A stretch of 64,000 bases of DNA from Kocuria sp. TGY1127_2. Its GTDB lineage: Bacteria > Actinomycetota > Actinomycetes > Actinomycetales > Micrococcaceae. The notes under the pieces are model-generated. The model did no database searches. It had not been told where the DNA came from and saw only the letters and a list, made by a program, of their open reading frames with translations. Below are positions 40,147-58,584 of this stretch, in pieces (within the stretch, counting starts at the first letter, position 1; the number at the start of each line of letters is the position of its first letter). The position numbers and the translations under genes are program-made. The DNA is taken from positions 1 to 64,000 of the forward strand of contig NZ_AP022834.1 in the NCBI RefSeq assembly GCF_013394385.1. The letters run 5' to 3'.

Positions 40147-41015
40147 CATTGACCGCTGTAATCGGACTAGGGACCATGGGAGGCCGTATCGCCCGCTCGA
40201 TCGGCGCCGGTGGCCATGAGGTTCGGGGCTTCGACCCCTTCAGGGGCGCTCGAGAGGCTGCCTCCGCTTCAGGCATCACCGTCTTCGAAACCGCCGAAGA
40301 GGCCCTGCAGGGGGCGGAGCTCGTCGTTATCTCCGTACCGCGTCCCGAGCACGTTCTTGCCTCTGCGCGCGGGCCACTGTCCACGGCTAAGGGAGCCGTC
40401 GTTGCCGATATGTCGACGATCGACCCAGGCAGTGCCAAGGAAGCCGCGGAGATCCTCGCCAAGCACGACGTCACCTACGTCGATGCCCCGGTGTTGGGCC
40501 GACCGGACAAGATTGGCAGCTGGACGCTTCCGACTGGTGGGCCCGAGGCTGCGACCGCACTGGTACGCTCCGTGCTCGAGGGCACGGTCGCCAAACAGGT
40601 CGTTCGCGTGGGCGATGTCGGTGCCGGCCATGCTGTGAAGGTCCTCAACAACCTCATGTTCGGCGCGATCAATGCGATCACCGCAGAAGTGCTCACCATC
40701 TGCGAGGCCGCGGGCGTCGATCCCGAAGTCTTTGTCACCACCGTTGCTGACTCTGGCGCCGCGACCGTTTCAAACCTATTCCGCGAGATTGCCCCGAAGA
40801 TGATCGCGAGTGATTTCGAGCCGGCCTTCGCCCTAGAGCTACTGGCAAAAGACAACAAGCTGGCCATCGATCTTGCCCGCTCTGTCGGCGCTCCGACACA
40901 CCTCGCCGAGATCATTGACCGTGTGAACACCGGAGCCATGGAGCAGGGGTTGGCCGATCGCGACACGGGAGCCGTCCAAGAGCTCTACCGCTCACAATCC
41001 GGAGCCAGTCGATGA
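40143..41015 (+). CDS. 3-hydroxyisobutyrate dehydrogenase-type NAD(P) oxidoreductase
   Basis: A 290-residue beta-hydroxyacid dehydrogenase. The Rossmann motif GLGTMG is at 8-13, the substrate-binding DAPVLGRPDK follows near 114-123, and catalytic Lys166 lies in GHAVKVLNN. Family enzymes interconvert 3-hydroxy acids and semialdehydes (for example hydroxyisobutyrate, tartronate semialdehyde). It overlaps the regulator by four bases and the next gene by four bases. The DAPVLG variant (usually DAPVSG) gives no clear substrate. Confidence 0.92.
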   Translation: MTLTAVIGLGTMGGRIARSIGAGGHEVRGFDPFRGAREAASASGITVFETAEEALQGAELVVISVPRPEHVLASARGPLSTAKGAVVADMSTIDPGSAKEAAEILAKHDVTYVDAPVLGRPDKIGSWTLPTGGPEAATALVRSVLEGTVAKQVVRVGDVGAGHAVKVLNNLMFGAINAITAEVLTICEAAGVDPEVFVTTVADSGAATVSNLFREIAPKMIASDFEPAFALELLAKDNKLAIDLARSVGAPTHLAEIIDRVNTGAMEQGLADRDTGAVQELYRSQSGASR

Positions 41016-42145
41016 GCAGCCTGCCCATCGAACGCATCGTCGCGCGGGTCCTTGAAAACCCCCTCGAGGAACACGTGCCGATGTCCTTCTCTCAGCTAAA
41101 CGCCCGACGTACCTTCCTGATCGAGGTCCACGCGGGTGGCGAGGTTGGGATCGGCGAGAGCTGGATCAACTACCCCGATTGGGCTGCCACTGAACGTCTG
41201 GCGACCCTGTTCGAGGGGGTAGCCCCGCTCGCCCTGGGGCGCGACGCGCTCGACCCCGGCTCATTGCTGGATTCCCTCGTCGCGGCCCTTGGCGGAGTAG
41301 GACGACAGTGGGGTGCGCACGGCCCAATCTGGCAAGCGATCAGCGGCGTCGACATTGCCCTGTGGGACCTACGAGGTCGTCTCGCCGGTACCTCCACCGC
41401 ACAGACGCTCGGCTTGCTCCGCGATAGCGTACCGGTCTATGCCAGCGGCGTCGGGCCCACCAAGGTCCATGATCTCACCGAGCGCGCACTCGAGCTGGGC
41501 CTGACCGCGGTCAAGACCAAGGTTGGCTTCGGCCAGGAGACTGACCGCGCCACCATCGCGGCGGTTCGCGAGGTGGCCCCGGAGATCCGTATCTTCGCGG
41601 ATGCCAATCAGGCGTGGACCCTTGAGGAGGCCATCGCGAACACGAAATGGCTGCAAGAGCAGGGCGTCGAATGGCTTGAGGAGCCCGTCTCTGGAGACGA
41701 CACCCGGGATCTCGCCACGCTGCACGAGACCACCGGTATGCCGCTGACCAGCGGCGAGAACGTGTATGGACTGGAGAATTTAGTTCGTCTCGTTACCACT
41801 GAGGGTGTTGTCCAGGCTCAGCCCGACGTCGCCAAATCAGGCGGGCTGACCGTCCTACTACGACTGGACGAGCGACTCGACGGCACTGGTTGCGGGCTGA
41901 GCCCGCACTGGTACTCCGGCGCCATCGGTCTGCGCGCCTCCCTGACACTCGCCACTGCCGTTGGCCACGCCGGATGGATCGAGCTCGACGTGCGCGCCAA
42001 CCCACTACGTGACGACCTCGTCACCGGCGGTTTTCCCCTTCGCGACGGCAATGCCCTCGCTCCCACCGCGCTCGGTCTCGTCGGTGATATCGACGCCGAA
42101 GCCGTGAACCGATTCCAGGTTCACTCCGAAGAACGGAGTTTTTGA
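41012..42145 (+). CDS. Enolase superfamily, mandelate-racemase subgroup
   Basis: A 377-residue enzyme with the full mandelate racemase active-site set: bases Lys168/Lys170 in AVKTKVG, metal ligands Asp197 (FADANQ), Glu223 (WLEEP) and Glu249 (SGEN), and the opposing Asp272/His299 dyad, spaced as in mandelate racemase. Such enzymes are sugar-acid dehydratases, racemases or lactonising enzymes acting through enolate intermediates. Translationally coupled at both ends within the operon. The substrate is unknown. Acid-sugar dehydration is a reasonable guess. Confidence 0.92.
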   Translation: MSSLPIERIVARVLENPLEEHVPMSFSQLNARRTFLIEVHAGGEVGIGESWINYPDWAATERLATLFEGVAPLALGRDALDPGSLLDSLVAALGGVGRQWGAHGPIWQAISGVDIALWDLRGRLAGTSTAQTLGLLRDSVPVYASGVGPTKVHDLTERALELGLTAVKTKVGFGQETDRATIAAVREVAPEIRIFADANQAWTLEEAIANTKWLQEQGVEWLEEPVSGDDTRDLATLHETTGMPLTSGENVYGLENLVRLVTTEGVVQAQPDVAKSGGLTVLLRLDERLDGTGCGLSPHWYSGAIGLRASLTLATAVGHAGWIELDVRANPLRDDLVTGGFPLRDGNALAPTALGLVGDIDAEAVNRFQVHSEERSF

Positions 42146-43560
42146 TGAGTACTACTTGCACCCCCGCAGCCCGCATCGGCTGCCAAACCCTCGAGGGCAT
42201 CGCCCATGACGTGATCGACCCCGCTACCGGCGCTGCCCTCGGGAGCGTCGGCTGGGCCAGCGCCGCAGACGTCGACCATGCAGTGGGCGTGGCCGCCGAT
42301 GCCTTCGCCGACTGGTCCTCCGCCCCGGCCAGGACCCGCGCCGCTGCTCTGCGCGCCATTGCCGCGGACCTGCGTTCCAAGGCCGCCAAGATTGCGCCCG
42401 TGATCGCCGCCGAATCGGGCAAGCTCCTTGCCGAAGCCACCGCCGAGGTCGAATTCTCCGCGAAGTACTTCGACTGGTTCGCTGAGGCTCCCGCGATCGC
42501 TGAGGAGGAGGCCGGCCGCGTCACGCCGCTTCGTCGCTTCCGTGTGCGCCGCCATCCTGTGGGAGTCGTCGCCGCGATCGGCACCTGGAACTTCCCGCTG
42601 TCAATCCCCGCCCGTAAGATCGCGGCCTCGATCGCCGCTGGTTGCCCAACAGTCCTCAAGCCCAGTGAACGCACTCCAGTCTCTTCTGACGCGTTGGTGC
42701 GCATCTGCGAGCGTCACCTCCCTGTCGGCGTCATCGGCCAGGTCATTGGTGATGGCCTTGAGATTTCGAATGCGTTGATCGACGACCCGCGCGTGGCTGC
42801 GGTGACCTTCACCGGGTCTACTCCCATTGGAAAAATCATCGCTGAGCGTGCGGGGCGTAGCTTAACTCGGGTCTGCCTCGAACTGGGCGGTCGAGCCCCC
42901 TTTATCGTGCGCGAAGACGCCGACGTGGCCGACGCCGTCGAACACCTGCTGATCGCGAAGCTGCGAAACAACGGCGAATCCTGCATCGCGGCGAACACCG
43001 TGTTCGTGCCCTCGACTTTGGCCGAAGATTTCCGGACAGTCCTTGCGGCGCGCATCGAGGCCACACGGCCTGGGGCCCAGACCGATGCCGAGGCCGACTT
43101 CGGCCCGCTCATTGACCAGGACGCGGTCACGCGTCTGACCGATCTCGTAGAACAGGCTGAGCAGAGCGGAAGACGTGTGGTGCGCGGCCAGACGGGTCCC
43201 GATAACGGTGCATTCATGGCCGCCGCTCTCGTTGAGGACGCCCGTGGCACCGAGCTGTATGAGCAGGAGATCTTCGGCCCCGTGATCGCACTGGTCACCT
43301 ACGACGATGAGTCCGCTGTCGTCGAGGAAATCAACGGGTGGGGCGTTGGACTGGCCGGCTACGTATGCGGCCGGGACCTCGCCGCGGCACAGAATCTCGC
43401 CGAGCGCCTGCGGATCGGCATCGTCGGTATCAACAATGGTGCCCCGAACACACCGGAAGTCCCCTTCGGTGGCTTCGGCGCCTCCGGAATTGGCCGCGAG
43501 GGCGGCATGGCCGGATATGACGAGTTCACCGAGCAGCAATCGATCTCGATCGCACGCTGA
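42145..43560 (+). CDS. NAD(P)-dependent aldehyde dehydrogenase
   Basis: A 471-residue ALDH with general base Glu246 (CLELGGRAP), nucleophile Cys280 (NNGESCIAAN), TFTGS for cofactor binding and EIFGPV near the C-terminus. It is closest in style to succinate-semialdehyde or 2-oxoglutarate-semialdehyde dehydrogenases. It starts one base before the end of the previous gene. In the pathway it would oxidise the semialdehyde made by the upstream steps to a carboxylic acid. Confidence 0.93.
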   Translation: MSTTCTPAARIGCQTLEGIAHDVIDPATGAALGSVGWASAADVDHAVGVAADAFADWSSAPARTRAAALRAIAADLRSKAAKIAPVIAAESGKLLAEATAEVEFSAKYFDWFAEAPAIAEEEAGRVTPLRRFRVRRHPVGVVAAIGTWNFPLSIPARKIAASIAAGCPTVLKPSERTPVSSDALVRICERHLPVGVIGQVIGDGLEISNALIDDPRVAAVTFTGSTPIGKIIAERAGRSLTRVCLELGGRAPFIVREDADVADAVEHLLIAKLRNNGESCIAANTVFVPSTLAEDFRTVLAARIEATRPGAQTDAEADFGPLIDQDAVTRLTDLVEQAEQSGRRVVRGQTGPDNGAFMAAALVEDARGTELYEQEIFGPVIALVTYDDESAVVEEINGWGVGLAGYVCGRDLAAAQNLAERLRIGIVGINNGAPNTPEVPFGGFGASGIGREGGMAGYDEFTEQQSISIAR

Positions 43561-43588
43561 CCGCTCCCTTCCCAAGAATGAGGCCATC

Positions 43589-44977
43589 ATGAACACAGTA
43601 GCCCTGCGCACCAAGCGTGATGTGATCACTTTTGTCAACAACCACCCCACCGGCAGCTCCCGAGGAAAGGTCATCGCTCTGATCGCCCTGGGCTCTATCT
43701 TCATCGACGCCTACGACTTCACGTCTCTCGCGATCGGCTTGGATTCGATGAAGGCGGAGCTTAGCCCCACCCCGTTCCAGGTGGGAACCACCACCTCAGC
43801 GATGGCGGTCGGCGCTCTCCTGGGCGCAATCTTCGGCGGATACCTCGTCGACAAGCTTGGTCGCTATAAGCTGCTGATCCTCGACCTGATACTTTTCGTG
43901 GTCGCGGCGATCGGCGCTGCGTTGTCTCCTTCCATCGAGGTGTTGATCATTTGGCGCTTCCTGCTGGGCCTAGGGGTAGGCCTGGACATGCCTGCAGCGC
44001 TGAGCCTGGTTGCGGAGTTCACTCGCAACAAAGATAAGGGCAAGTTCGTCAACCTCTGGCAGCCCATGTGGTACGCGGCGACGATCACCTCCGCGGCCCT
44101 GGTACTGCCACTGGTGTTCCTTGGTCTGGAGGAACACATGTGGCGCTGGGCCGTGGGATTCGGCGCTGTCCCGGCCTTGATTGTCTTGGCCCTACGCTTC
44201 CTTTTCGCTGACGAGAGCCCTATGTGGGCGGCCCACAACCTGGGCATGGAAGAGGCCGTGAAGATCCTCCATAAGAACTTCCCATCCACAGAATTCGTGG
44301 TCGAAGAGGGTGAAGTGGAGAAGGAAGCCGATACTCGTATCAGTCGCATCTTCGAGCGCAGATACCGTGTCCGATCCCTTGTCGTCGCGGTGGTCAGCGG
44401 CTTCCAAGCGGTCCAATACTTTGCTGTCGGATTTTATCTGCCCGTGATCGTAGGGTTGATCTTCGGGCTGGACGTCATTTCCATCGTAACCGGCACCATT
44501 CTGCTGAACTTGTTCGGTCTTTTAGGCGGCGGTATCCAGCCGTTCCTTACACATCGATTCGGCGGGCGCATGCTCACGTTGGTCGGCAGCGCGATCTGCG
44601 TCGTCGCGCTGATCGCGGTCGGCCTGGTCGAGTTGGAATCCACACCGTACCTTGCTGCGACTCTCGTGGGGGCGTTTATTTTCGGCCACTCCTTCGGCCC
44701 GGGATCGCAGGGCAAGACGATGGCGACGCTGTCGTACCCTACCGATCTGCGTGGCACGGGCACCGGATGGGCCGAGGCTTGCAGCCGTTTGGGGTCCATC
44801 GTGGGCTTCTACGTGTTCCCGCTGGTAATAGCCGCGGTGGGCCTGTCTCAGACGATGCTCATCCTCGCGGCTGTTCCGCTGATCATCTTCGTAACTGTGC
44901 TGGTGGCGCGCTGGGACCCGAAGAACGTCGAAATCGAGGCCGAGTCCGTCGGACCTGAGCGTGTCCGACGCGCCTAG
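43589..44977 (+). CDS. MFS transporter, sugar/organic-acid porter
   Basis: A 462-residue, 12-helix facilitator with FIDAYDFTSLAIGLDSMK in helix 1, GGYLVDKLGRYKLL (the inter-helix 2-3 signature) and RFLLGLGVGLDMPAALSL in helix 4. The C-terminal half contains GHSFGPGSQGKTM. It is the last gene of the GntR-led operon and presumably imports its substrate. The ATG at 43589 has a modest GAGG site. A much longer in-frame upstream extension overlaps the ALDH gene and is not used. Confidence 0.9.
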   Translation: MNTVALRTKRDVITFVNNHPTGSSRGKVIALIALGSIFIDAYDFTSLAIGLDSMKAELSPTPFQVGTTTSAMAVGALLGAIFGGYLVDKLGRYKLLILDLILFVVAAIGAALSPSIEVLIIWRFLLGLGVGLDMPAALSLVAEFTRNKDKGKFVNLWQPMWYAATITSAALVLPLVFLGLEEHMWRWAVGFGAVPALIVLALRFLFADESPMWAAHNLGMEEAVKILHKNFPSTEFVVEEGEVEKEADTRISRIFERRYRVRSLVVAVVSGFQAVQYFAVGFYLPVIVGLIFGLDVISIVTGTILLNLFGLLGGGIQPFLTHRFGGRMLTLVGSAICVVALIAVGLVELESTPYLAATLVGAFIFGHSFGPGSQGKTMATLSYPTDLRGTGTGWAEACSRLGSIVGFYVFPLVIAAVGLSQTMLILAAVPLIIFVTVLVARWDPKNVEIEAESVGPERVRRA

Positions 44978-45004: not shown

Positions 45005-45364
45005 ATGGTTCAAAGCCGGTTCCCCCGCAAGGTTTATAACCGTGGGACTGAGCCCGACGCACGATTCAGCCTTGCCAATGAACGTACCTTCCTTGCATGG
45101 ATTCGCACTTCTCTCGCTCTCGTGGCCGCGGGCGTCGCCCTGGAGGCTCTGGACTTGCCGATCCATCCCGACTTGCGCCAGATCGCTTCGCTGATCCTCG
45201 TCCTACTTGGTCTACTTGCTGCGTGTTTATCTTTCGTACGATGGGCACGCACGGAACGAGCCCTGCGGGAGCGACGGCCCTTAACAGGGTTGGGGGCGGG
45301 TGCGCTTCTGACTTCAGGAGTCATCCTCGGCATTCTCGGAATCCTCGTAGGGCTCCTTCTGTGA
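45005..45364 (+). CDS. DUF202 (YidH-like) membrane protein
   Basis: A 119-residue protein with the DUF202 signature ARFSLANERTFLAWIRTSLAL followed by three membrane helices. AAGGAGG precedes the ATG. A second, shorter DUF202 gene overlaps its 3' end by four bases, the usual tandem arrangement. The function is unknown. Confidence 0.9.
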   Translation: MVQSRFPRKVYNRGTEPDARFSLANERTFLAWIRTSLALVAAGVALEALDLPIHPDLRQIASLILVLLGLLAACLSFVRWARTERALRERRPLTGLGAGALLTSGVILGILGILVGLLL

Positions 45365-45699
45365 ACGAGCCTAATGCGCTCTTCGATCCGGGGCTGCAGC
45401 CGGAGCGTACCCTACTCGCTTGGCAGCGAACATGCTTGGCGCTGGCCGTTGTAATTGCCGGCGGTACTCGCTTGGCTATGCCGGTCCTTGGAGCACCGAT
45501 CGTGGTGCTGGGCACTATCAGCCTCGCATTGCTGACGTTCTCCTGGTTGGGGACGATTCATCGATACCGCGGGGTTCATCGGTCCCTCACTGGTTCTCAG
45601 GCTGCCCTTCAGCAGAGCGGATGTTCCTTGGCCGTCCTCGCGGGCGCTACCTCTATCTTCGGTCTCGGTGGGTTCGCTTTCGTGTTGTTCGAAGGCTGA
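45361..45699 (+). CDS. Second DUF202 membrane protein
   Basis: A 112-residue, three-helix membrane protein beginning VNEPNALFDPGLQPERTLLA and followed by WQRTCLAL, the DUF202 core. The GTG start overlaps the preceding DUF202 gene by four bases, so the two are translationally coupled and probably act together. No enzymatic residues are apparent. Confidence 0.88.
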   Translation: MNEPNALFDPGLQPERTLLAWQRTCLALAVVIAGGTRLAMPVLGAPIVVLGTISLALLTFSWLGTIHRYRGVHRSLTGSQAALQQSGCSLAVLAGATSIFGLGGFAFVLFEG

Positions 45700-46293: not shown

Positions 46294-47937
46294 TCAAATC
46301 CGAATGATCTTGCCGAGGTTGAACAGCGAGTCACCAGCAATCAGTCCAGCGCCAACCAGACCGACCTCTCGTTCACCTTCTTCACCGCGCCATTTGGTCC
46401 AGAGCTTTCGCGCAAGCAACCCGATGAGGACCAGCCATCCAGCGTTTGGCGAGGCCACCAGCAAACCCGTTGCGAACAATACGCCCAGCTGTCGCTGAGG
46501 GCCGCCCACGAGCTGAATGATCGCTCCCGGTATGGCCCACAGGGCCATTGTCTTGCCAATGGACGGGTCACTGACACCAGCTGTGATGGTGTCGGCGAAG
46601 ACTTGGGAGGTCGGCGGGATGGCGCCGCTGTTCAACAAGTTGTCCCACGAAATTGCGACGATGCCGATGGAGATCAGGATTGCTACCACAGACGCTTGCA
46701 GCTGTTGCTTGCGGCCGTCCATTTCGAATGCAGTGTACGGACGATGTTCTCTCCGCAGGATCCACCCGGCCTTGTAGTCATAACCCATATCAGCAAAGGC
46801 CGGTCCGGTCGCTGAACAATAGGCCACCAACAAGACCAGGGGCGCGGCTGGAATGTGAATCAACAAGCCAATAACCAGGAAGATCAGCGTAACCGCAAAA
46901 GCCGGGAACCAGCCCGCGTGCATTGCGGCCAAACCCACGATCAGTTCGTGGATGATTGCGGCCAAACCGGCAAACAGAACCAGACCCAGAATTTCCCACC
47001 ACGGCAGTCCTTCTAGGACGCCTGCGAAGCCGGTGAGAATTACCGCTCCCGCCACGAACGCCAAGTACCCAAACCCAAAAGCTCGAGCTAACTGTTGGGG
47101 ATTCACCGTGTACTTCATGGACGGATCCGTCTTGGCAGCTTTTGAGACTTCTGCCTCGCGCTTTTGCGCCGACTTGCTTCGCGAGCCAAAGATGATCCAC
47201 AGCACCTGAAACAGAGCGACGATGCCGGCCCCGATCATCAGCCCGTGCGGTATGTACAGCGCCGTCAGATCCACTTGGAACAGGGTAGGTGCGTACTGGG
47301 CAATCAGCAGGCCGATTCCGAACATCGTCAGGGACCACATATTGCCGATAAGGGCCACACCTGCAGCGGACATGGGCAGAGAAAGGAATGACCCTCCGAT
47401 ACCTACCGCGGTGCCAGCGGCGAGGATAAGCGCGCGTCTGCCTCCGCGTGAGCCCGCCTTAATGGTCTCGGCCGCAGCGGTTCCTGGCGGCCAAGCGTTG
47501 GATGCCGGAAAAAGCTTCGACCCGTAGACCTTGAAAAGGACAAAGACGTCTACCAGTACACCTATCGAGGCTCCGAGCAGCATGGGCCAAACGAGCTCAG
47601 GCATCCCCAGTGCGAATGGAATAGCGATGGGCGCCAAAAGACCGTTTGCTGCCGCGAACGTCGAGGCCGAAACCGCCGATTGCACCAGGTTCTGTCGATT
47701 TTCACTGCGGAGCTTGGATAACCCGAAGAAGGAAATCCTCCCCAACAGCATGGCGATCACTGCGCCGATGATGCTGGTATTTGCGGAGATTCCCAGTGTA
47801 GTAATCAGGTTCAACCCAACGATGGCGCCAAGAACACTCAGAATAATCGTGGGTATAAGCACCACGGGCTCGAAGGCTCCGGGGTGCCGCGTTTCGTTGC
47901 CTTCCGGGGCAACCTTGTTCTCAGCCACGTCGCTCAC
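46294..47937 (-). CDS. OPT family oligopeptide transporter
   Basis: A 547-residue polytopic membrane protein of the OPT family, with SNAWPPGTAAAETIKAG and many helices. Bacterial OPT proteins import small peptides or peptide-like metal chelates with protons. It is the last gene of a tightly packed minus-strand operon: class V aminotransferase, PepE, DUF1177, OPT (gap of 14 bases to DUF1177). The context suggests import of a peptide later cut by the PepE-like enzyme. Confidence 0.92.
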   Translation of the reverse strand: MSDVAENKVAPEGNETRHPGAFEPVVLIPTIILSVLGAIVGLNLITTLGISANTSIIGAVIAMLLGRISFFGLSKLRSENRQNLVQSAVSASTFAAANGLLAPIAIPFALGMPELVWPMLLGASIGVLVDVFVLFKVYGSKLFPASNAWPPGTAAAETIKAGSRGGRRALILAAGTAVGIGGSFLSLPMSAAGVALIGNMWSLTMFGIGLLIAQYAPTLFQVDLTALYIPHGLMIGAGIVALFQVLWIIFGSRSKSAQKREAEVSKAAKTDPSMKYTVNPQQLARAFGFGYLAFVAGAVILTGFAGVLEGLPWWEILGLVLFAGLAAIIHELIVGLAAMHAGWFPAFAVTLIFLVIGLLIHIPAAPLVLLVAYCSATGPAFADMGYDYKAGWILRREHRPYTAFEMDGRKQQLQASVVAILISIGIVAISWDNLLNSGAIPPTSQVFADTITAGVSDPSIGKTMALWAIPGAIIQLVGGPQRQLGVLFATGLLVASPNAGWLVLIGLLARKLWTKWRGEEGEREVGLVGAGLIAGDSLFNLGKIIRI

Positions 47938-47951
47938 TCCTGTTTCCGGGG

Positions 47952-48905
47952 CTATTTCTTGCCTGAGGTTTGGAATTGCTTCAACGACCCGTACTGCGTT
48001 TGGAGGTTTTCAAATTCGGAAGAATCGTAGAACTCAGCACGGCCCCACGTGAACTGAACTGCGGTTTCGAGTCCGAATCGAACCGCGTCCAGAATCGCGT
48101 CCGGATAGCTTGCTCCCGTCACGCTTCCGGGAACTGCGGCCTTGGCTGTCAGCGCGAGTCCAATGACCGGGGCAACTGTCGCAACGTGTGGCTGCATGAT
48201 CGAGTTGAAGTGGTAGAACCCGTTCTCATAGGGAGTGATGTCCTGGAGCGATACGGGGAAAGTGAATGCGGGTTCTCCTGTCGCGTTCTCCAGGATGCTC
48301 ACCAGATCGGGGGCGACCGGCAGAATGTAGCCTTGCTTCGCCGTCGCAGAGATGGCAATCCCGCGGTGATTGATGATTTTGTTGCCTTTGGAGGTGTCCA
48401 CGGAAAGGATCGCGTCCATGGTCTTGTCGACCTCGTGATCGTTCATTTTCGCGGAGCTGATGGGCGAGCCCATGAAATCTACCGGCTTGTGTTCCTTGAT
48501 CGACACATGCGTGGCGACGTGAGTGGTGATAATGACGTCACCCTGAAGGATGGCTCCGGCCTCGTGCATGCGAAGGAGCTTCAGCGCAAGCGCCAAGGCG
48601 ACAATGGATCCGTCGGAGTCGGAGACCATGCCTATGCGCTCAGGCTGAGCTTGCTGGGCTCCCAAACGACCGATGATGCCCAGTGTTCGTTGTTTCCCGC
48701 CATGGGTTTTACCGTTGTTTCCCGGAATAACGACTTTGATGAAGTCGCACTTGAATGGCAGATTCGGATCATCGTAGGGGATGGAATCAACCGATATGGT
48801 GCACCCTTTGGCGTTAGCAGAGTCCAAGAGTTTTTTCGCCTCTGCTCCGCTAAGGCTCGGGCTGTCGATGAGGTTGATGACTTCTGAAACTTCTTTAATG
48901 CTCAT
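47952..48905 (-). CDS. DUF1177 family protein
   Basis: A 317-residue soluble protein matching DUF1177: motifs RIGMVSDSDGSIVALALALKL, GDVIITTHVATHV and SILENATGEPAFTFPVSLQD. The overall pattern of conserved Asp, His and Glu residues would allow a metal-dependent hydrolase similar to M20/M42 peptidases or deacylases, but this is inference. It overlaps pepE by four bases and precedes the OPT gene by 14. No experimental function is known to me for this family. Confidence 0.85.
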   Translation of the reverse strand: MSIKEVSEVINLIDSPSLSGAEAKKLLDSANAKGCTISVDSIPYDDPNLPFKCDFIKVVIPGNNGKTHGGKQRTLGIIGRLGAQQAQPERIGMVSDSDGSIVALALALKLLRMHEAGAILQGDVIITTHVATHVSIKEHKPVDFMGSPISSAKMNDHEVDKTMDAILSVDTSKGNKIINHRGIAISATAKQGYILPVAPDLVSILENATGEPAFTFPVSLQDITPYENGFYHFNSIMQPHVATVAPVIGLALTAKAAVPGSVTGASYPDAILDAVRFGLETAVQFTWGRAEFYDSSEFENLQTQYGSLKQFQTSGKK

Positions 48906-49627
48906 TTCTTCCCCTTGATTTCGCCAAGACTAAACATTTCCCCGGCAGCGATCGTTCTGGGCTGGACGTTGTTGCTGAACACAAGCCCGTCGCGGTCACC
49001 GAGAATAGTTCCGGTATCCCCCTGGACGTGGAGGGCGCAACCTTCGTATAAGGCCAGGACTTCCTCATTACAGTTCAGGGTTACGAACTCGGTCAGCCGT
49101 TCTTCACGGCTTTCACCGTTGTGACCGGCCGGTTTGCCGGATACGAAATGAGGATTGATCTGGAAGGGAACTAAGCCCAGGCCCACGAAGGAGGGCGGTT
49201 GCACGATCGGCATGTCATTGGACGTTCGGATGCTCGCCGTAGCTACATTTGTTCCCGCGCTCCAACCGACGTATGGGATGCCCTCGTCCATTACTCGGCG
49301 ACGGATTGGGTCGACGAGACCTCCGTGATAGAGACGATTCAGCAAGGCAAAGGTATTACCGCCGGCCACCGCGATTGCCCCCGCTTCAGCTACTGCGCGG
49401 AGAGGATCCGGTTCGTGATGAATAGAGCGAATGGTGTAGCCAAGCCGTGAGAACGGTTCGGCAGCAAGTGCTTCGTATTCGTCGTAGGTCGGGGTAATCG
49501 CCGCATACGGAATATAGAGGACATCTCTTGGTCCGCTACCCAGCAGGGTTCTTAGCTGGCTGGAGGCATGTTCGAGGTAGCCCAAGTCGTCTTTCTTAGA
49601 GCTGCTCATTAACATTGCATTTACCAT
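48902..49627 (-). CDS. pepE: PepE-like dipeptidase (peptidase family S51)
   Basis: A 241-residue peptidase similar to Salmonella alpha-aspartyl dipeptidase PepE. The catalytic Ser-Asp-His set is kept: Ser123 in GWSAGTN, Asp138 in SNDMP, His160 in NPHF, with GGNTF nearby. PepE cleaves dipeptides with N-terminal Asp. Here the residue after NDMPIV is Gln rather than Asp, so specificity may differ. It overlaps the aminotransferase gene by one base and the DUF1177 gene by four. GAGGTAGG precedes the ATG. Confidence 0.92.
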   Translation of the reverse strand: MVNAMLMSSSKKDDLGYLEHASSQLRTLLGSGPRDVLYIPYAAITPTYDEYEALAAEPFSRLGYTIRSIHHEPDPLRAVAEAGAIAVAGGNTFALLNRLYHGGLVDPIRRRVMDEGIPYVGWSAGTNVATASIRTSNDMPIVQPPSFVGLGLVPFQINPHFVSGKPAGHNGESREERLTEFVTLNCNEEVLALYEGCALHVQGDTGTILGDRDGLVFSNNVQPRTIAAGEMFSLGEIKGKK

Positions 49628-50826
49628 CAGTGCCTACCTCGTTCCTTCTCGAGAAATGATTTGATAATCGAGGTCATGCGGTCGATCTCGGTCTGGGAAT
49701 TGAAGTAATGCAAGGATGCTCGCGCCATCGTTTCGATCCCATAAGCCTTCAGAATCGGCGTGGCCATGAAGTGCCCAGACTCGATGATGATGCCCTGTTC
49801 CGCGAGGGCGGCTACCAGTTCAGCCGGGTCGATTCCAGCAACGTTGAATGGAATGATGCCCAAGCGATGGGTGGAATCCGGGGGCCCATAAACAGATGCC
49901 CCGTCGATGGATCGAATTTTCGTCACGGCATATTCGGTCAGTTCCCGCACGTGTGCCTCGATGTCCGCGACACCGATGTTCTCTGCGTAGTCAATGGCCT
50001 TTTCGAGGGCCAGGATGACAGGCACGTTGGGGGATCCTGCCTCGAAACGGCGAGCGGTGTCCGGGAATCCGATTCCGCCGTCCTCGCCTATTGAAGCGTT
50101 CCACCAGCCAGCCAGTACGGGAGAGAGATTCGAAATATGTTCTTGCCTGACGTATAAGATGCCGGACCCTTCGACGGACCGAAGGCCCTTCCTGGTGCAC
50201 GCCGAGAGGAAATCACAACCGATTTGGTTGATGTCGGTGGGGATCATTCCCAAAGATTGCGCCGCATCCACGTGAGTGAGAACTCCAGCTTTTCGGGCCA
50301 CCTGACATATCTGGGCAACTGGTTGCACAGCTCCAGTCACGTTGGACAGGGACACAAAACTGATAAGCCTGGTGCGTTCGGAGATGGCGTTTGCAACCGA
50401 CGTGGGATCGATCAGACCGTGTTCATCTGCCCTGACGGTAACGATTCGAATGCCTATTTCCGACTCCAACTGGCGCCAGATGGCAACGTTGCTGAGCATC
50501 TCAGTATCGGGCAGGATCAGCTCATCGCCTGCCCTCCACACAATCCCTCGGCCTATCAAGGAAATCGATTCCGTACCGTTGCGGGTGAAGGCGATTTCCT
50601 CTGGTTCTGCGCCGATAAACCGTGCGGTTTTGCCCCGTATGTCTTCGATTTTTCGGTAAATCTCTGCTCGCAGTGACGGCAGGTACGGACCTGAGTCCAC
50701 CGTCTTGGCGAGGTAGTCGGTCATTGCTTGTACGGCACTTCTGACAGGCGGTGCAGCGGCTGCCGTATCGAAATATGCGTATCGATGGGTTACCGGGGTC
50801 TCATCCCTCACGCGTTGCCACTTCAC
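49627..50826 (-). CDS. Class V aminotransferase (cysteine desulfurase-like)
   Basis: A 399-residue PLP enzyme. Asp187 lies in HVDAAQ and the Schiff-base lysine is Lys213 in CTRKGLRSVEG. Class V members include cysteine desulfurases, kynureninases, isopenicillin-N epimerases and amine lyases. There is no obvious active-site cysteine loop, so a desulfurase role is not certain. GTG start with AAAGGTGG upstream. It is the first gene of the operon and is divergent from an IclR regulator (99 bases between start codons). Confidence 0.9.
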   Translation of the reverse strand: MKWQRVRDETPVTHRYAYFDTAAAAPPVRSAVQAMTDYLAKTVDSGPYLPSLRAEIYRKIEDIRGKTARFIGAEPEEIAFTRNGTESISLIGRGIVWRAGDELILPDTEMLSNVAIWRQLESEIGIRIVTVRADEHGLIDPTSVANAISERTRLISFVSLSNVTGAVQPVAQICQVARKAGVLTHVDAAQSLGMIPTDINQIGCDFLSACTRKGLRSVEGSGILYVRQEHISNLSPVLAGWWNASIGEDGGIGFPDTARRFEAGSPNVPVILALEKAIDYAENIGVADIEAHVRELTEYAVTKIRSIDGASVYGPPDSTHRLGIIPFNVAGIDPAELVAALAEQGIIIESGHFMATPILKAYGIETMARASLHYFNSQTEIDRMTSIIKSFLEKERGRH

Positions 50827-50925
50827 GGATCCACCTTTGTCTGCGGTTCTTTAGTTCTTGAACAAAAGTATGATCTGGGCAACACTGGCCATGCCAGAGT
50901 TTCCCGGAGAGAGGGATAAAAGATC
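50827..50925. promoter_or_regulatory. Divergent promoter and operator between the PLP-enzyme operon and IclR
   Basis: It contains the palindrome GTTCTTGAAC (50854-50863) and a -10-like TATGAT (50869-50874) reading toward the iclR-type gene. Its position suggests the IclR-type protein controls both directions. Confidence 0.5.
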
Positions 50926-51687
50926 ATGGTGGAACGTGTTCACGGAGCGGCACATGCTTTGGATGCCTTGCTGGCCTTCGATGCAGAACGTGACAGTCTG
51001 GGGGTTTCGGAACTCGCCAGACGTCTCGGTTGCAGCACATCGACAGCGCAGCGTGCCGTTAACACACTGTGCGAGCTCCAATTCCTGCGTCGTGACGACC
51101 AGACCAGGCGTTACTACCTGGGAACAGCCGTACTCCAGCTCACCAAGGCCTGGAATCGGGCAAGTTCTCTCAAGAGGTTCGCTGAACCCATCATCATCGA
51201 TCTGGCCGCAACCACGGGGTTAGTAGCGACGTTTGCTGTGCCTGATCATGCCCACATGCGCTCCCTCGTCGCTTGCGACGGTAAGGAAGGCGCACTGCGG
51301 GGGTACCCGATGGGAGGAGAGTTGTTCCCCGCTCACGCCGGGGCGATTTCTAAGGTCTACTACGCACAGTTGCCCGAGAAGGCACGGGCCAGGTTTGTCA
51401 CGGGTCGGCCGATGGCCAAGTTCACCGCTACAACTACAACCGTTCCATTACAGCTCGAGCAAGAGTTTCGAAAGATCGCGAGGGTCGGGTATTGCTCGAC
51501 TCATGGGGAATATGATGAAGCGGTCTCGGCTCTGGCGGTTCCTGTGCTGGTGAAAGACGACCCGCTCGGCGCCATTTCTGTTGCCACGCGAGGCGATCTG
51601 GTCGTCGATTCCACACTGATTGCACAATGCAAGCAGGCCTCCAGCGATCTGCAATCGTTGCTTTCCCTGCAACGTCGCAGACGTTAA
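50926..51687 (+). CDS. IclR family transcriptional regulator
   Basis: A 253-residue regulator. An N-terminal winged helix (about 8-65, with LGVSELARRLGCSTSTAQRAV) is joined to an IclR effector domain (residues about 80-250, with GYCSTHGEYDEAVSALAVPV). It is divergent from the aminotransferase / PepE / DUF1177 / OPT operon, so a local repressor or activator role is likely. The inducer is probably the imported compound or a product of it. Confidence 0.92.
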   Translation: MVERVHGAAHALDALLAFDAERDSLGVSELARRLGCSTSTAQRAVNTLCELQFLRRDDQTRRYYLGTAVLQLTKAWNRASSLKRFAEPIIIDLAATTGLVATFAVPDHAHMRSLVACDGKEGALRGYPMGGELFPAHAGAISKVYYAQLPEKARARFVTGRPMAKFTATTTTVPLQLEQEFRKIARVGYCSTHGEYDEAVSALAVPVLVKDDPLGAISVATRGDLVVDSTLIAQCKQASSDLQSLLSLQRRRR

Positions 51688-51726: not shown

Positions 51727-52020
51727 TGAGTGGACACCGAATTTAGGTAGTGGCTACTGCTGTTGTTAGGCGAGTGCAACGATGACAAGTGTGATGAGGA
51801 AGCGTCTGAGTTTCACCCCGGAGTATCAGCAGGATCTGTGATGCCGATGATCGAGCCTGCTCGCACAGGCGCCATTGTTCCCGTGGAAATCGGCGTCGGC
51901 GCGCAAACGCTGGGCGGAGGGCGACAGAAGATCGAGCTGGAGAAGGAGCTCTCGGTGGCCGCCTCGATGCGGCAGAAGGGGCTGGCAAGGGCATTAGCCC
52001 GCGGATGTTCGTTCTGGTGA
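51727..52020 (+). mobile_element. IS3-family transposase OrfA remnant
   Basis: At 51782 a frame reads MTSVMRKRLSFTPEYQQD, the typical start of an IS3-family OrfA (MRKRxxFTPEYRAE...), then stops. A second frame (from about 51850 to 52019) carries the remnant IEPARTGAIVPVEIGVGAQT and then ELEKELSVAASMR. The bases TGGACACCGAATTTAGG before it may be an IS end. The gene is truncated and frameshifted and cannot make a transposase. Confidence 0.7.
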
Positions 52021-52164
52021 CCACGATCGTAGCAGTGCAAGGTAGGTCTGTCTGCGTGGATTGGCAGAAAGGGGGGCTCAACACTGGTTGATAAAACGGC
52101 CGCACGTTACGGAGGGGCCGCACGGCCTCGGCTGACCGATCATTCTTCTGCTTCTATTTGATGG

Positions 52165-52360
52165 AGTTTTAAAACTGCGAACGTGCTTGGCTTTGGCTCG
52201 GCTCATCGGATTCGCTAGCCGACCGCACGTATGCCCTACTAGGCCAATCCTCACCACGGACTTGGTCTGTCCTACACATAGGGCACGGGAGTGGTTCGCC
52301 GCTCACGACATCAACCCAATCGACAAGATCGTTACCGACAATAGGCCTGCTACCGCGCTG
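52165..52360 (+). mobile_element. IS481-like transposase fragment
   Basis: A frame from about 52187 reads REWFAAHDINPIDKIVTDN, close to the DDE-region segment of IS481-type transposases (FFAAHGIxxxxVxTDNG). The next two bases break the frame. Reading on gives ACYRA, the expected continuation of the motif. The fragment covers only the middle of the enzyme and runs up to the end of the SorC gene on the other strand. It is clearly non-functional. Confidence 0.7.
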
Positions 52361-53357
52361 AGGGCTTCGCTTGGTCGATCAGTTGCTGCGCCGTTGTAAC
52401 GTCGGTGACCAGATGCGTTATAAGGCCTCCGTTCAACGCACCGTACAGGGCTGTCACCTTCCTGGCCCCACAGGTCACGCATACGCGGTAGCGACTGGAC
52501 CGGAGGCCCTCCAGGTCGGGACCGCTTGTTCTGCGGTTGAATTCAATGTCATGCGACGATCCGTCCTTTCGGAAGTACGTTGCCGAGATCTCACCGACAC
52601 ATTGCTCGGATTCGAGTTCTCGAGAGTCGTCCGTGCCGACGTAGTAGCCGGCCAGATAGGGGCCGTTGGGCAGGTTGTCGTCTAGCGTGCCGACGTTGAA
52701 AAGGACAAGGTCCGCCGTCTGTTGCAGGCGCCGGATTCGTGCAATGCTGCGTTCGGAAAACAGCGCGTCACGCGTCACGGGCGAGTCGAAGAAAAGCGGC
52801 ACAGGGAACTGTTGGACGTACGCGTTGAAAGCAGTACCGAACCTTTCCATGATCAGATTGGAGTAGTGGATCCCGCTGGTGATGGAGTTGCCGAATCCGT
52901 TGAGTTGAACGACTTGGCAATTGACGGTCGATTTGGGGGTCAGGCATCTGCTCACCGAATCGATCATGGTGCCCCAAGAAATAGCCATGACCATGTCGGA
53001 CTCCAGCAGCTCATGAACGAGATGCGCACCGCGCAGAGCAACCGCCTCAAGGCTTTCGCCCACGTCTGACGATCCAGTGGGAACCACCGTACAGCTTTCT
53101 AAGCCGTATTCGTCCTTTAGCCTATTCTCGATGACCAAGTCATTGGATCGTCCTGGACGGACTCGGACTTCGATGAGTCCGACCTCTTTAGCCCAGCTGA
53201 GCAGTCGGGAGACCGTTGAACGCGACATACCAAGAGCCCGCGCTATCGCCTGCATTGTTTGTCCCTGGGCGTAATACCGCGATGCGACTTCGAGGGCTTT
53301 GGCCCGCTTGTCGTGGAGATACGGGTCCCAATTGTCACCGGTCTGGGAAAGTGTCAC
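52350..53357 (-). CDS. SorC/DeoR-type sugar-binding transcriptional regulator
   Basis: A 335-residue regulator. An N-terminal helix-turn-helix (QAIARALGMSRSTVSRLLSWA) is followed by a sugar-phosphate-binding domain with SWGTMIDSV and VGEISATYF elements. The GTG start has weak ribosome binding. It is downstream of an MHS transporter (98 bases) and an FAD oxidoreductase gene on the same strand, which it probably controls. The inducer may be a phosphorylated sugar or organic acid derivative. Confidence 0.9.
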   Translation of the reverse strand: MTLSQTGDNWDPYLHDKRAKALEVASRYYAQGQTMQAIARALGMSRSTVSRLLSWAKEVGLIEVRVRPGRSNDLVIENRLKDEYGLESCTVVPTGSSDVGESLEAVALRGAHLVHELLESDMVMAISWGTMIDSVSRCLTPKSTVNCQVVQLNGFGNSITSGIHYSNLIMERFGTAFNAYVQQFPVPLFFDSPVTRDALFSERSIARIRRLQQTADLVLFNVGTLDDNLPNGPYLAGYYVGTDDSRELESEQCVGEISATYFRKDGSSHDIEFNRRTSGPDLEGLRSSRYRVCVTCGARKVTALYGALNGGLITHLVTDVTTAQQLIDQAKPSAR

Positions 53358-53454
53358 GTGGTGTTTCCACCCACTTCGTCATCGATCTTTGAGTGTTCCT
53401 GGGTGAAAAGCAATCCCACATCCAGGGGTCTTACTAGCCATTGTTGGAGCTAGT

Positions 53455-54792
53455 TCAGCTAGTCTCAAGTGCTCCATCCGCCTTGTACTTCTGGGGGTCG
53501 ACAAAGTCCATGTCACGTCGATCGGGTGTACCGACGACCCCGGCGATTGCTATGACACACAGTACGATCATGACCACTGACAAAGCCCAGGTGCCGGATG
53601 TCAGGTTACTGAGCCAGGCGAAGATAAAGGGCAACGTACCGCCGATCGCAGCGGATGCGACTTCGCGACTGAACGCCATTCCCGTGTACCGGACGTTCGT
53701 CTGAAACATCTCCGCCAACATGGACTGCTGCGAGCCCAGCATGAGGTCCAGAGCAAAGGTCAGCACCAAAACTATGGCGAACCAGATCGCGATCGTATTT
53801 TTGGTGTCGAGTAGCCAGAACATCGGGAAGGCAGCCAGGATCGTCAGGGTTGCGCCCGCGATGAAGATTCTTTGTCTGCCGAATCTGTCGGACAGATAGC
53901 CAGCCAGCGGTATTGTCGCGAGTTTGATGACATTGGCAATGAGCAGTCCGATTGTCCCTATGGAGGCGGCGAGCCCTAGGTTGTCCGTGATGTAGGTCAG
54001 CAGATAGACGCTTGGCACGTAGGTGGCCACGTTTGGCCCAATGCTCAACAGCAATCCCCGAATCACGGTCTTCGGTTCCCTCTTGAACACTTCTACAATG
54101 GGCGCTCTGGCCTGTGATTCCTGTTCCTCCACGTTGTGCACGTAGGCCGGGGTCTCCGTGAGCTTGGCTCGGAAGTACAGACCGACTACGACGAGCAGAC
54201 TACTGAGCAAGAATGGAACCCGCCAGCCCCACGCCAGGAACGCCTCCTGCGGTAGAAAGGTGAACGGAGTCAGTACGATCGCCGCGCCGGCAGCTCCCAG
54301 CCCGTTGCCTGCATTCGGCAATGCCGTGAAGAAGCCTCGCCGCGACTTGGGTGCATATTCTGCGGCCATCAGGGAGGCGCCGGCGAGCTCGGCTCCGGCG
54401 CCCAGACCCTGAAGGACGCGGAGGATGACCAAGAGGATCGGCGCTGCCACTCCGATTGTGGCATAGGAGGGAATGAGGCCCATGAGCGTGGAGGCTGCAC
54501 CCATGAGGATCACCGTTGCGGTAAGCACGGGCTTGCGCCCGACCTTGTCGCCGAGGTGGCTGAAGATTATCCCGCCAAATGGCCGGGCGAAAAAGCCGAC
54601 CGCAAAAGTCGCCAACGACTGGAGCACCCCGGCGGCCGGATCGCCCGATGGAAAGAATACGTGGCCAAATACTACGGCCGCCGCGGTTCCGAATAGCAAG
54701 AAGTCGTACCACTCCAACGCAGTTCCGATCACACTGGCAGCTACGACGCGATTGCGCATCGATCGTGAGGTGTCTGTCTTGTCAACTTTCAT
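53455..54792 (-). CDS. MHS family MFS transporter (organic acid:H+ symporter)
   Basis: A 445-residue, 12-helix transporter of the metabolite:H+ symporter family: RVVAASVIGTALEWYDFLLF in helix 1, FARPFGGIIFSHLGDKVGRK, and RVLQGLGAGAELAGA in helix 4. Members carry shikimate, dicarboxylates, tricarballylate and similar acids. It starts one base after the FAD oxidoreductase ends, with GGAGG inside that gene's tail, so the two are translationally coupled. Confidence 0.92.
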   Translation of the reverse strand: MKVDKTDTSRSMRNRVVAASVIGTALEWYDFLLFGTAAAVVFGHVFFPSGDPAAGVLQSLATFAVGFFARPFGGIIFSHLGDKVGRKPVLTATVILMGAASTLMGLIPSYATIGVAAPILLVILRVLQGLGAGAELAGASLMAAEYAPKSRRGFFTALPNAGNGLGAAGAAIVLTPFTFLPQEAFLAWGWRVPFLLSSLLVVVGLYFRAKLTETPAYVHNVEEQESQARAPIVEVFKREPKTVIRGLLLSIGPNVATYVPSVYLLTYITDNLGLAASIGTIGLLIANVIKLATIPLAGYLSDRFGRQRIFIAGATLTILAAFPMFWLLDTKNTIAIWFAIVLVLTFALDLMLGSQQSMLAEMFQTNVRYTGMAFSREVASAAIGGTLPFIFAWLSNLTSGTWALSVVMIVLCVIAIAGVVGTPDRRDMDFVDPQKYKADGALETS

Positions 54793-54793
54793 G

Positions 54794-56188
54794 TCACGCC
54801 TCCATCGGCACCTTGTAGCTGGGTCCGAGGTAAGCGCCCTCCTCAGTGAGCCGACGCTGCAATTCTGTGACGTCTACCTCGACCGGATTGACACCATGGT
54901 CGATTGCCAATCCGGCGGCCTCGCCGGCGGCCTGGCCGATCGCAAAGGCCGGTGGCATGACGCGCACAGCCGCCAGAGCCTCGTGTGTTGCCGATATGCA
55001 CCGACCGGCGGCGATCACACCAGTCAGCGAGATGGGGACAAGGGAGCTATAGGGGATCTCGTAGATATTTGCGGTGGCCGGCAACTCATCGTCGAAGGGG
55101 CCCTGCGTGCTTGAAGGGCTGTGGATGTCCGCGGGATATCCGGCAACGGCGATGACGTCGTTGAAATGTCGCCCTTCGACCAGATCGCTTAGGGTCAACG
55201 TGTACTGCCCGGTGATTCGCCGCGACTCGCGCACGCCTACGGTTGCGGCGGTCTCGGTGACGCGTGCCCGTTCCAGGCCGGGAAGCCGGTCGTGAAAGAA
55301 CCGCATGAGTTCGGGGATCTGGTGGCGTGTGATGATTTCTGCAGCGGTGAGATCTGCCGATTTCGTGCCGTCCTTGCCCAAGACTCGCGTTGTGTTGATA
55401 CTCCAGACACCGGGCTGCATGGTTTTGAATAGCTGGACTCCGCGGCGGGGAAGATCATAGGTGCCCTCTGCCTGTGCCTGTTCCACCAAGTGCTGGTAGG
55501 GGAAGTGCTCATCGGGATTTTGCCGTTTGTACTCTTCTACGGACTCGTCGTCTACATCTGCTATGCGGAAGAACACTGTCATCGGCTGAGTCAGTCCGTC
55601 CTCGGTGCGTCCGAGGTCGAACTTTCCACCACCATGCGCGACGACGTCACCGTCCCCGCTGCAGTCGATGGTGATTTTGGCCGGGAAGAACGTCAGGCCG
55701 TCTTTGTTCCCGACGATGACTCCCTTGACGTTCTCATGCTCGACAACGGTGTCGACAACAAAGCTGTGAAGCACGATGTCGACGCCGGCCTCTTGGCACA
55801 TATCCAGGGCCTCGAGTTTGGCGGCCTCCGGGTCGAATGGTGTGACGGCCTCGTGGCCGAACTTCATGAACCCAGCGTATGGCGTCCCTGACTTAGTCTT
55901 GGAAGGGTGCACAGCCGCACCCTGTTGTTCTAGTCGCGTAATGAACTCGTCGAAGATCCCCCGTACCAGTTGGACAGAGCCGTCCAGAGAGAATGATGTC
56001 ATGCACGGGTTCACCATCCCCGCCGTCAGGTTCCCGCCTAGAAAGCCGTACTGTTCCACGATTCGGGTGCTGTTGCCAGATCTTCCCGCGGCTATTGCTG
56101 CCGCCAACCCAGAAGGTCCACTGCCGACCACCAGTACGTCGGTTTCCGGCGCGATCGAGATTTTCTTCTCGTAGTGCATTGTGACCAT
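54794..56188 (-). CDS. FAD-dependent oxidoreductase
   Basis: A 464-residue flavoprotein of the PF12831 type: dinucleotide motif DVLVVGSGPSGLAAA, then EQYGFLGGNLTAGMVNPCM and a late GRCISATHEALAAVRVMPP. Such enzymes oxidise hydroxy acids, amines or unsaturated acids with FAD. The start at 56188 follows GGAGG, and a TTG six codons upstream is less likely. It is the first gene of the operon ending with the SorC regulator. The substrate presumably enters by the coupled MHS transporter. Confidence 0.88.
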   Translation of the reverse strand: MVTMHYEKKISIAPETDVLVVGSGPSGLAAAIAAGRSGNSTRIVEQYGFLGGNLTAGMVNPCMTSFSLDGSVQLVRGIFDEFITRLEQQGAAVHPSKTKSGTPYAGFMKFGHEAVTPFDPEAAKLEALDMCQEAGVDIVLHSFVVDTVVEHENVKGVIVGNKDGLTFFPAKITIDCSGDGDVVAHGGGKFDLGRTEDGLTQPMTVFFRIADVDDESVEEYKRQNPDEHFPYQHLVEQAQAEGTYDLPRRGVQLFKTMQPGVWSINTTRVLGKDGTKSADLTAAEIITRHQIPELMRFFHDRLPGLERARVTETAATVGVRESRRITGQYTLTLSDLVEGRHFNDVIAVAGYPADIHSPSSTQGPFDDELPATANIYEIPYSSLVPISLTGVIAAGRCISATHEALAAVRVMPPAFAIGQAAGEAAGLAIDHGVNPVEVDVTELQRRLTEEGAYLGPSYKVPMEA

Positions 56189-57299
56189 GATGCGTTTATC
56201 CTCCAATTGTCAAAGACTGGTCCACCGTCTGTAACGGTTTTCTCAAGCTAGTGGCCGTGTTCAGCAGGTCTCAACGATTTTGAACATTCGTGCGATATGC
56301 ACATCGGGTGCAGCCCACCTACTCCTCCATAAGTGCTTTCCCGACAAACGGGGTTGTAGAGCGGATGCCGATGCGACCTGGGCGCACATCTTGTTTGACA
56401 TCAAGGTCGTGTCAGGACGGTGGCCCGATCAGGCACGGCGGGTGCCGCGGGTCTTCTTCTGCGATGCCACCGAACTCTTCCCACTCGTCTCAGAGGGTGT
56501 CTGGGCACCTGCAATCGAGACGTCCCCCAGGGCAATACGACCGATATGAGTCAACGTGAGGGCCCCGCACACCTGACGAGAAGTATCAGAAGTATCAATT
56601 GCTCGAAGAGCATTGTCCGGGCAATCGGTTGGAACTGGTTGCCCGTCACCCCTCGCCCTGTGCGGGTTGATAAATCAGGAACGGATAATGCACCTCATGG
56701 CAAAGCTCGTAAGGCAATAACGGCGGCGAGATTGAGGGCGAGGGTATTGCGTTGGCGTCAAATGAACGGCTAACGCTGAAACGGATAAAGTCCTTGAGAC
56801 CTTACTGCGGAAACACAACGAAAATCGAAATGCCAGCAAATATGGCCACCGATCAAGGGCCGTCCATCCAGCAGGTGCAGGAATTTTTCCAACGGGCCGC
56901 GGGAGGAACATTCCGAAATAGACGCAGGCCTGTTGTAGCTACTGATTGATGCGGCGCGTAAGGCGGCGGTGGCCCACGGTACAGCCGTGCATGTACACCA
57001 TGTCCCGGGTAGGTTCCGAGCTTGCCGGTGACTTGTCCGTGGACTTGCGTGTGTGTGCTCGACTAGGTACACGATGCCTCACGCGGCGTTGGGTAACAGG
57101 GGAGCGGCGGACTTAACGCTTTGCTGCGCTGGGGTTGCCTGCTGATACGGTGACCTCTGTGATTCCGATAACCATCGTGTCCCCCAGGGGGTCGGTGTCC
57201 GCCGGCGGGCGGCCAATTAACTGAGCTTTCTCCAGGTGCGGACTTCTGAATCGGACCAATCCTCGCCTACTCTGGCACTGATTTTTGGAGAGAGATTTT
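56189..57299. other. 1.1 kb region without a recognisable gene
   Basis: The region between the FAD oxidoreductase and the MatC-like carrier has no frame with family resemblance or a convincing ribosome binding site. The outward promoters of both flanking genes must lie at its ends. It may be decayed insertion-element DNA like that at 51.7-52.4 kb, but no transposase motif was found. Confidence 0.4.
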
Positions 57300-58565: not shown

Positions 58566-58584
58566 AAGAGAATTCGGGCAAGAC

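Follow-up and report, generated by a model that had tools for sequence, protein, structure and literature searches.

Introduction

The described gene clusters that come closest to the one reported here surround cyclodipeptide oxidases. According to the excerpted text of PMC11055893, these clusters are enriched in PF01177, DUF917, AroM, OPT and peptidase genes; in the same excerpts the AroM proteins are called uncharacterised and DUF1177 is not named. That paper was also the only one in open-licence PubMed Central in which 'AroM family' occurred together with OPT. In the same collection OPT was not found together with 'dipeptidase PepE', DUF1177 was mentioned only in connection with another family, and nothing was found on the gene set analysed here. 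For the pyridoxal phosphate (PLP) enzyme of this set, a comparison from another direction is offered by a review (PMC6411801), in the excerpts of which serine and alanine racemases are also reported to avoid an acid at the pyridine nitrogen, and the absence of this Asp in serine racemase is tied to racemization over elimination.

Results

Gene content of the cassette

The genes lie in a 64,000-nucleotide stretch of DNA from Kocuria sp. TGY1127_2, the whole of which is called the window below. A preliminary description of this DNA had listed four genes on one strand and a divergent regulator gene. All five were found where it had placed them, on the same strands, with overlaps of 1 and 4 bases and gaps of 14 and 99 bases:

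46294..47937, minus strand: OPT-family transporter, 547 aa (PF03169, 77.6 bits, cut-off 25.8)
47952..48905, minus strand: DUF1177 protein, 317 aa (PF06675, 377 bits, cut-off 25)
48902..49627, minus strand: PepE-like aspartyl dipeptidase of family S51, 241 aa (NF003642, 289.8 bits, cut-off 156; PF03575, 198 bits)
49627..50826, minus strand: class V PLP enzyme with the SufS fold, 399 aa (Pfam family match; Lys213)
50827..50925: divergent control region of 99 bases between the class V PLP gene and the IclR gene
50926..51687, plus strand: divergent IclR-family regulator, 253 aa (PF01614, 62 bits; PF09339, 41 bits)

Each protein exceeded the Pfam cut-off of the family for which it had been named. 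A palindrome had also been reported in the 99-base gap. Its perfect arms measure at most 5 bases, and 404 of 500 single-base shuffles equalled or beat this value; as the inverted repeat is not above chance against these shuffles, it was dropped as a regulatory palindrome. The cassette has a G+C content of 56.5%, compared with 59.4% in the window; at third positions, too, G+C was lower in its genes than in the six flanking genes measured. This base composition, together with the gene trees described below, points to acquisition of the cassette by horizontal transfer.

In the surrounding DNA, a catabolic-looking run on the plus strand (41012-44977) encodes an enolase-superfamily dehydratase with NCBIfam matches under cut-off, an aldehyde dehydrogenase (by eye) and an MFS transporter (Pfam), and its third-position G+C is above that of the cassette. 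It is followed by two adjacent small membrane proteins (45005-45699), the first a DUF202 protein by Pfam and the second similar by eye. Beyond the IclR gene, positions 51780-52100 resemble by eye the decayed start of an IS-type transposase. Further on, genes for a sugar-binding-domain (SorC/DeoR-like) regulator, an MFS metabolite symporter and an FAD-dependent oxidoreductase (PF12831) share a single strand (52350-56206), and a transporter followed by a PrpF isomerase-like protein, both recognised by eye, occupies 57285-59664.

Occurrence of DUF1177 and of the full gene set

DUF1177 is sporadic across the phylum, with 7 carriers in 296 genomes. It was found in 17 of 297 genomes of the window's order (16 above the family cut-off) and, in the order to which an enterobacterial carrier belongs, in 5 of 295 genomes (4 above the cut-off); each of these counts takes in the genome from which the search started, and the sub-cut-off matches in two genomes (G358, G614) were left out of the locus counts below. 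In the search of the window's order, DUF1177 was absent from all four further members of its genus. The closest record found was Kocuria sp. 36, with DUF1177 at 94%.

The full set of IclR, OPT, PLP, PepE and DUF1177 genes was present in six loci of Actinobacteria and Gammaproteobacteria: the window, a second Kocuria (L002), a Corynebacterium (L004), two Enterobacteriaceae (L003 and L005) and a Zobellella-like bacterium (L064). All six have the gene order PLP-PepE-DUF1177, while the positions of the IclR and OPT genes vary. Co-occurrence of the gene set exceeds chance, as it recurs in distant bacteria. For at least 33 of the 120 DUF1177 clusters listed, the longest contig had the same size as that of a listed PLP-homologue cluster, 119 of the 120 listed PLP values having been compared. 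In a search for E. coli carriers, no DNA matching the PLP-PepE-DUF1177 stretch was found among 20,395 records at blastn sensitivity. In the Corynebacterium cassette the OPT gene is broken across two reading frames (L004, 11010-12640).

Genes neighbouring DUF1177

We compared 37 DUF1177 loci, comprising the window, 4 loci from genome contigs, 6 from plasmids and 26 from genome searches; the second Planococcus plasmid (H2) was left out of the counts. Neighbours within 8 kb were called by their similarity to genes of the window and to genes annotated on plasmids. OPT genes were found at 24 of the 37 loci, PepE at 20, IclR at 26 and peptide-type ABC genes at 9; AroM occurred at 22, Asp/Glu racemase at 12, M29 peptidase at 16, DUF917 at 10 and HyuA-type genes at 7. 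The OPT and PepE frequencies bear out the earlier impression of a linked set resembling peptide uptake and breakdown. An occurrence of DUF1177 mostly apart from OPT or S51 genes had been named as grounds for refutation; the counts do not refute the link, with one or the other near DUF1177 at 28 loci, and OPT or peptide-type ABC genes at 30. The loci lacking both OPT and PepE are L016, L017, L063 and L035-L040, of which the first two do carry ABC genes of the peptide type, whereas no OPT, peptide-type ABC or PepE gene was found near DUF1177 in L063 and L035-L040. In L035-L040, all from one bacterial family, genes for DUF1177 and for an M29-like peptidase lie with divergent genes of DUF917 and HyuA type, the DUF917 protein being S-methyl thiohydantoin desulfurase-like.

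Most DUF1177 loci seen contain AroM, Asp/Glu racemase or M29 peptidase genes, without this PLP enzyme. A seventh PLP locus, on a Planococcus plasmid (L012), has different neighbours and no PepE. If it is counted with the six, AroM or Asp/Glu racemase is nearby in 0 of 7 PLP loci and in 22 of the 30 others (Fisher p 6e-4, with kinship ignored); the remaining 8 of the 30 have neither. This non-overlap largely reflects the history of a single clade. AroM is encoded elsewhere in the genome of two PLP-type Enterobacteria.

Separate descent of core and importer

The DUF1177 tree had 53 rows, from 35 loci and 18 database proteins; two loci (L073, L074) that are part of the neighbourhood counts and of the OPT, IclR and PepE trees are absent from it. 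The six window-type loci fell within one clade of 21 rows (SH-aLRT 100), in which 5 of the 15 database proteins come from records whose longest contig has the same size as that of a PLP homologue. The DUF1177 of L012 lies outside the main PLP clade. The PepE proteins of the six PLP loci also form a single clade (SH-aLRT 99), so for both proteins the window, Kocuria and Corynebacterium group with the enterobacterial and Zobellella-like loci. The OPT and IclR trees, from the former of which the short OPT piece of L012 was left out, differed from this. Here the proteins of the window, Kocuria and Corynebacterium nest among actinobacterial rows that are mainly AroM-type. Their OPT proteins join that of L044, a locus of this type (95), and belong with it to a 14-row actinobacterial group (100), and their IclR proteins join six actinobacterial rows, five of them AroM-type (99). 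Forcing the six PLP rows together was rejected for OPT (p-AU 3e-5) and for IclR (p-AU 2e-39), in tests for which the six-row group was chosen after inspection of the trees and long branches were present.

The gene set had been called fixed. According to the trees it is not: PLP, PepE and DUF1177 make up its core, and transporter and regulator were exchanged. Since OPT and IclR differ in descent from the core, the core seems to have acquired its transporter and regulator from resident AroM-type loci. A transporter and an inducer-binding regulator both meet the substrate, and thus PLP-type and AroM-type cores likely treat the same compound. Alternatively, the substrate may have changed along with OPT and IclR.

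Residues of the PLP enzyme

The window enzyme has the fold type I, class V fold, and Lys213 is in place as earlier claimed. Its score with TIGR01979 (cysteine desulfurase, SufS type) is 267 bits, under the cut-off of 475, and the 50 nearest solved structures listed are all cysteine desulfurases or selenocysteine lyases. Residues were mapped using E. coli SufS positions that we take to be H123, D200, Q203, H225, K226, C364 and R379; this mapping was consistent with two HMMER alignments. The position of the catalytic Cys of SufS is occupied by Met354, and by Met in all 118 homologues with a letter there. The position of the stacking His holds Met, Ile, Phe or Asn among the homologues, and the carboxylate-binding Arg369 is retained in 118 of 118. 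The Asp facing the pyridine nitrogen is replaced by Asn, Ser or Cys in 108 of 120 homologues; the window enzyme retains it (D187), as do 11 others. Judged from these alignments, loss of the pyridine Asp as a racemase signature is not universal in the subfamily.

With the PLP enzyme as query, 249 records of a plasmid collection matched at E ≤1e-30. Among the best 30 of these 249, only two exceeded 40% identity, both being DUF1177-bearing Planococcus plasmids; the class V protein of L012 (46% identity) was assigned to the same subfamily. In more distant relatives from the 249 records (~32-35% identity) the pyridine Asp was present in all five checked. A wider class V group with a GRKxLR motif includes L075, L076, L078 and L079; in annotated cases its genes adjoin amino-acid ABC, Xaa-Pro peptidase, amidohydrolase or carbon-nitrogen hydrolase genes.

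PepE and DUF1177 proteins

The window PepE has Ser123, Asp138 and His160 in place, in agreement with the preliminary description, and exceeds the NCBIfam equivalog cut-off for dipeptidase PepE. Among solved structures it matches the alpha-aspartyl dipeptidase 7c9b (E 1.2e-57). The replacement of a nearby acidic residue by Gln had also been pointed out. The corresponding residue of 1fy2, which we take to be PepE from Salmonella, is indeed Asp, but in 7c9b it is Tyr, so the Gln at position 143 carries little weight.

Comparison of a predicted DUF1177 structure with metallopeptidases, proposed at the outset, gave a predicted clan MH metallopeptidase fold over 238 residues of the model. The site is probably altered relative to clan MH. 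The Vibrio aminopeptidase positions that we assume for the mapping are H97, D117, E151, E152, D179 and H256, and a hand alignment of motifs, made without residue-level superposition, suggests that both His and both Glu are gone. Searches with phmmer, hmmsearch and Pfam, at E values as high as 10, revealed no sequence link between DUF1177 and peptidases, and no usable alignment to five ArgE/DapE proteins was obtained with hhalign. For M28 proteins of five genomes one match was strong and the others were weak.

Discussion

The operon likely imports and degrades a short peptide. Our preferred reading, to which we give a probability of roughly 0.4, is an IclR-controlled uptake and breakdown module for a single class of compounds, short peptides or peptide-like amino compounds, whose use requires a stereochemical change. 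From these comparisons we infer the direction of transport, the substrate, the racemase activity, the role of DUF1177 and the regulation. OPT would bring the compound into the cell and PepE would cut an aspartyl or aspartyl-like bond. Stripped of the cysteine desulfurase machinery, the class V enzyme may invert an alpha-carbon in the peptide or in an amino acid released from it, thereby doing the work presumed for the AroM and Asp/Glu-racemase proteins of the commoner DUF1177 loci. DUF1177, with its MH fold and non-standard site, might perform a further hydrolytic or binding step, and IclR would control the module. On the basis of the distribution of AroM and racemase genes (0/7 against 22/30) and of the core, OPT and IclR trees, the PLP enzyme seems to take the place that amino-acid racemases have in related gene sets; its proposed identity as a racemase or epimerase draws on its residues and on this gene exchange. 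We know of no racemase within its class V subfamily. A more detailed version appears unlikely to us: that a desulfurase-fold enzyme became a racemase or epimerase mostly by losing the pyridine-nitrogen Asp and took over from AroM and Asp/Glu racemase in a pathway that handles D- or iso-aspartyl peptides, DUF1177 being a new MH-fold hydrolase whose site is non-classical.

The same peptide module could instead use the PLP enzyme as a beta-lyase or other eliminating enzyme, like C-DES, or as an aminotransferase acting on the amino acid released by PepE. C-DES, a cystine C-S lyase, needs no catalytic Cys, and the window enzyme is related to SufS and C-DES in sequence and fold, retains the pyridine Asp and shares the invariant Arg369. 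We nevertheless consider this somewhat doubtful in view of the loss of the Asp in 108 of 120 homologues, the feature linked to racemization in serine racemase, the exchange of the stacking His, and a gene distribution complementary to that of racemase genes.

Opening or processing of ring compounds such as cyclic dipeptides or hydantoins, with DUF1177 as the ring hydrolase, would agree with the make-up of the cyclodipeptide-oxidase clusters and with the DUF917 and HyuA-type genes at some DUF1177 loci, but DUF917, HyuA, AroM and racemase genes are all absent from the six window-type loci and the published excerpts leave DUF1177 unnamed. Of the 33 genomes or records searched (G477 and G573 lay outside this search), only 2 have a nitroreductase gene no more than 8 kb from DUF1177, namely G054 and a Salinigranum plasmid, the enzyme of the latter being NfsA-like and not AlbA-like; cyclodipeptide oxidase was thereby rejected as a DUF1177 partner, and the ring-compound reading as a whole is improbable. 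The Salinigranum gene (L016, 11533-12390) is missing from the PLSDB gene table and sits between the M29 peptidase and racemase genes of the DUF1177 cluster. Import by OPT of a metal chelate or another non-peptide amino compound, with PepE linked incidentally, seems very improbable: some OPT proteins do transport metal-nicotianamine complexes, yet all six window-type loci contain PepE, and at several DUF1177 loci the place of OPT is taken by peptide-type ABC genes.

DUF1177 is a family without known function, and the swap offers a direct test: if the PLP enzyme does racemize a compound, AroM and racemase proteins should accept that compound and OPT transporters of the shared lineage should import it. 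A fold type I PLP enzyme would then also be working without the pyridine aspartate.

Comparison with known systems

Measured against the group II cysteine desulfurases SufS and CsdA, the window-type enzyme has Met for the catalytic Cys, Met for the stacking His and Arg instead of His before the Lys, usually lacks the pyridine Asp, and scores under the cut-offs of the NCBIfam models listed. The PepE protein resembles the alpha-aspartyl dipeptidases of family S51 (1fy2, 7c9b) over nearly its full length and in the catalytic triad; Asp-X cleavage is predicted, and it differs from known PepE in being part of a conserved cassette. The DUF1177 model is predicted to be similar in fold to clan MH (M28 aminopeptidase of Vibrio proteolyticus, M17, M42), with most zinc ligands and the catalytic Glu apparently replaced.

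With AroM and Asp/Glu/hydantoin racemase clusters, including the cyclodipeptide-oxidase clusters as far as the excerpts of PMC11055893 describe them, the window type has OPT and peptidase genes in common, and among the loci seen here also DUF1177. It differs in having the PLP enzyme, without AroM, racemase, DUF917 or oxidase genes nearby; in G000, G585-G588 and G857, no nitroreductase-fold gene (PF00881) was found at up to 8 kb from the cassette. Because it has the OPT and peptidase genes and lacks the rest, we file it as an uncharacterised peptide-uptake module and not as a cyclodipeptide-oxidase cluster. The window cassette is a variant within the DUF1177 group.
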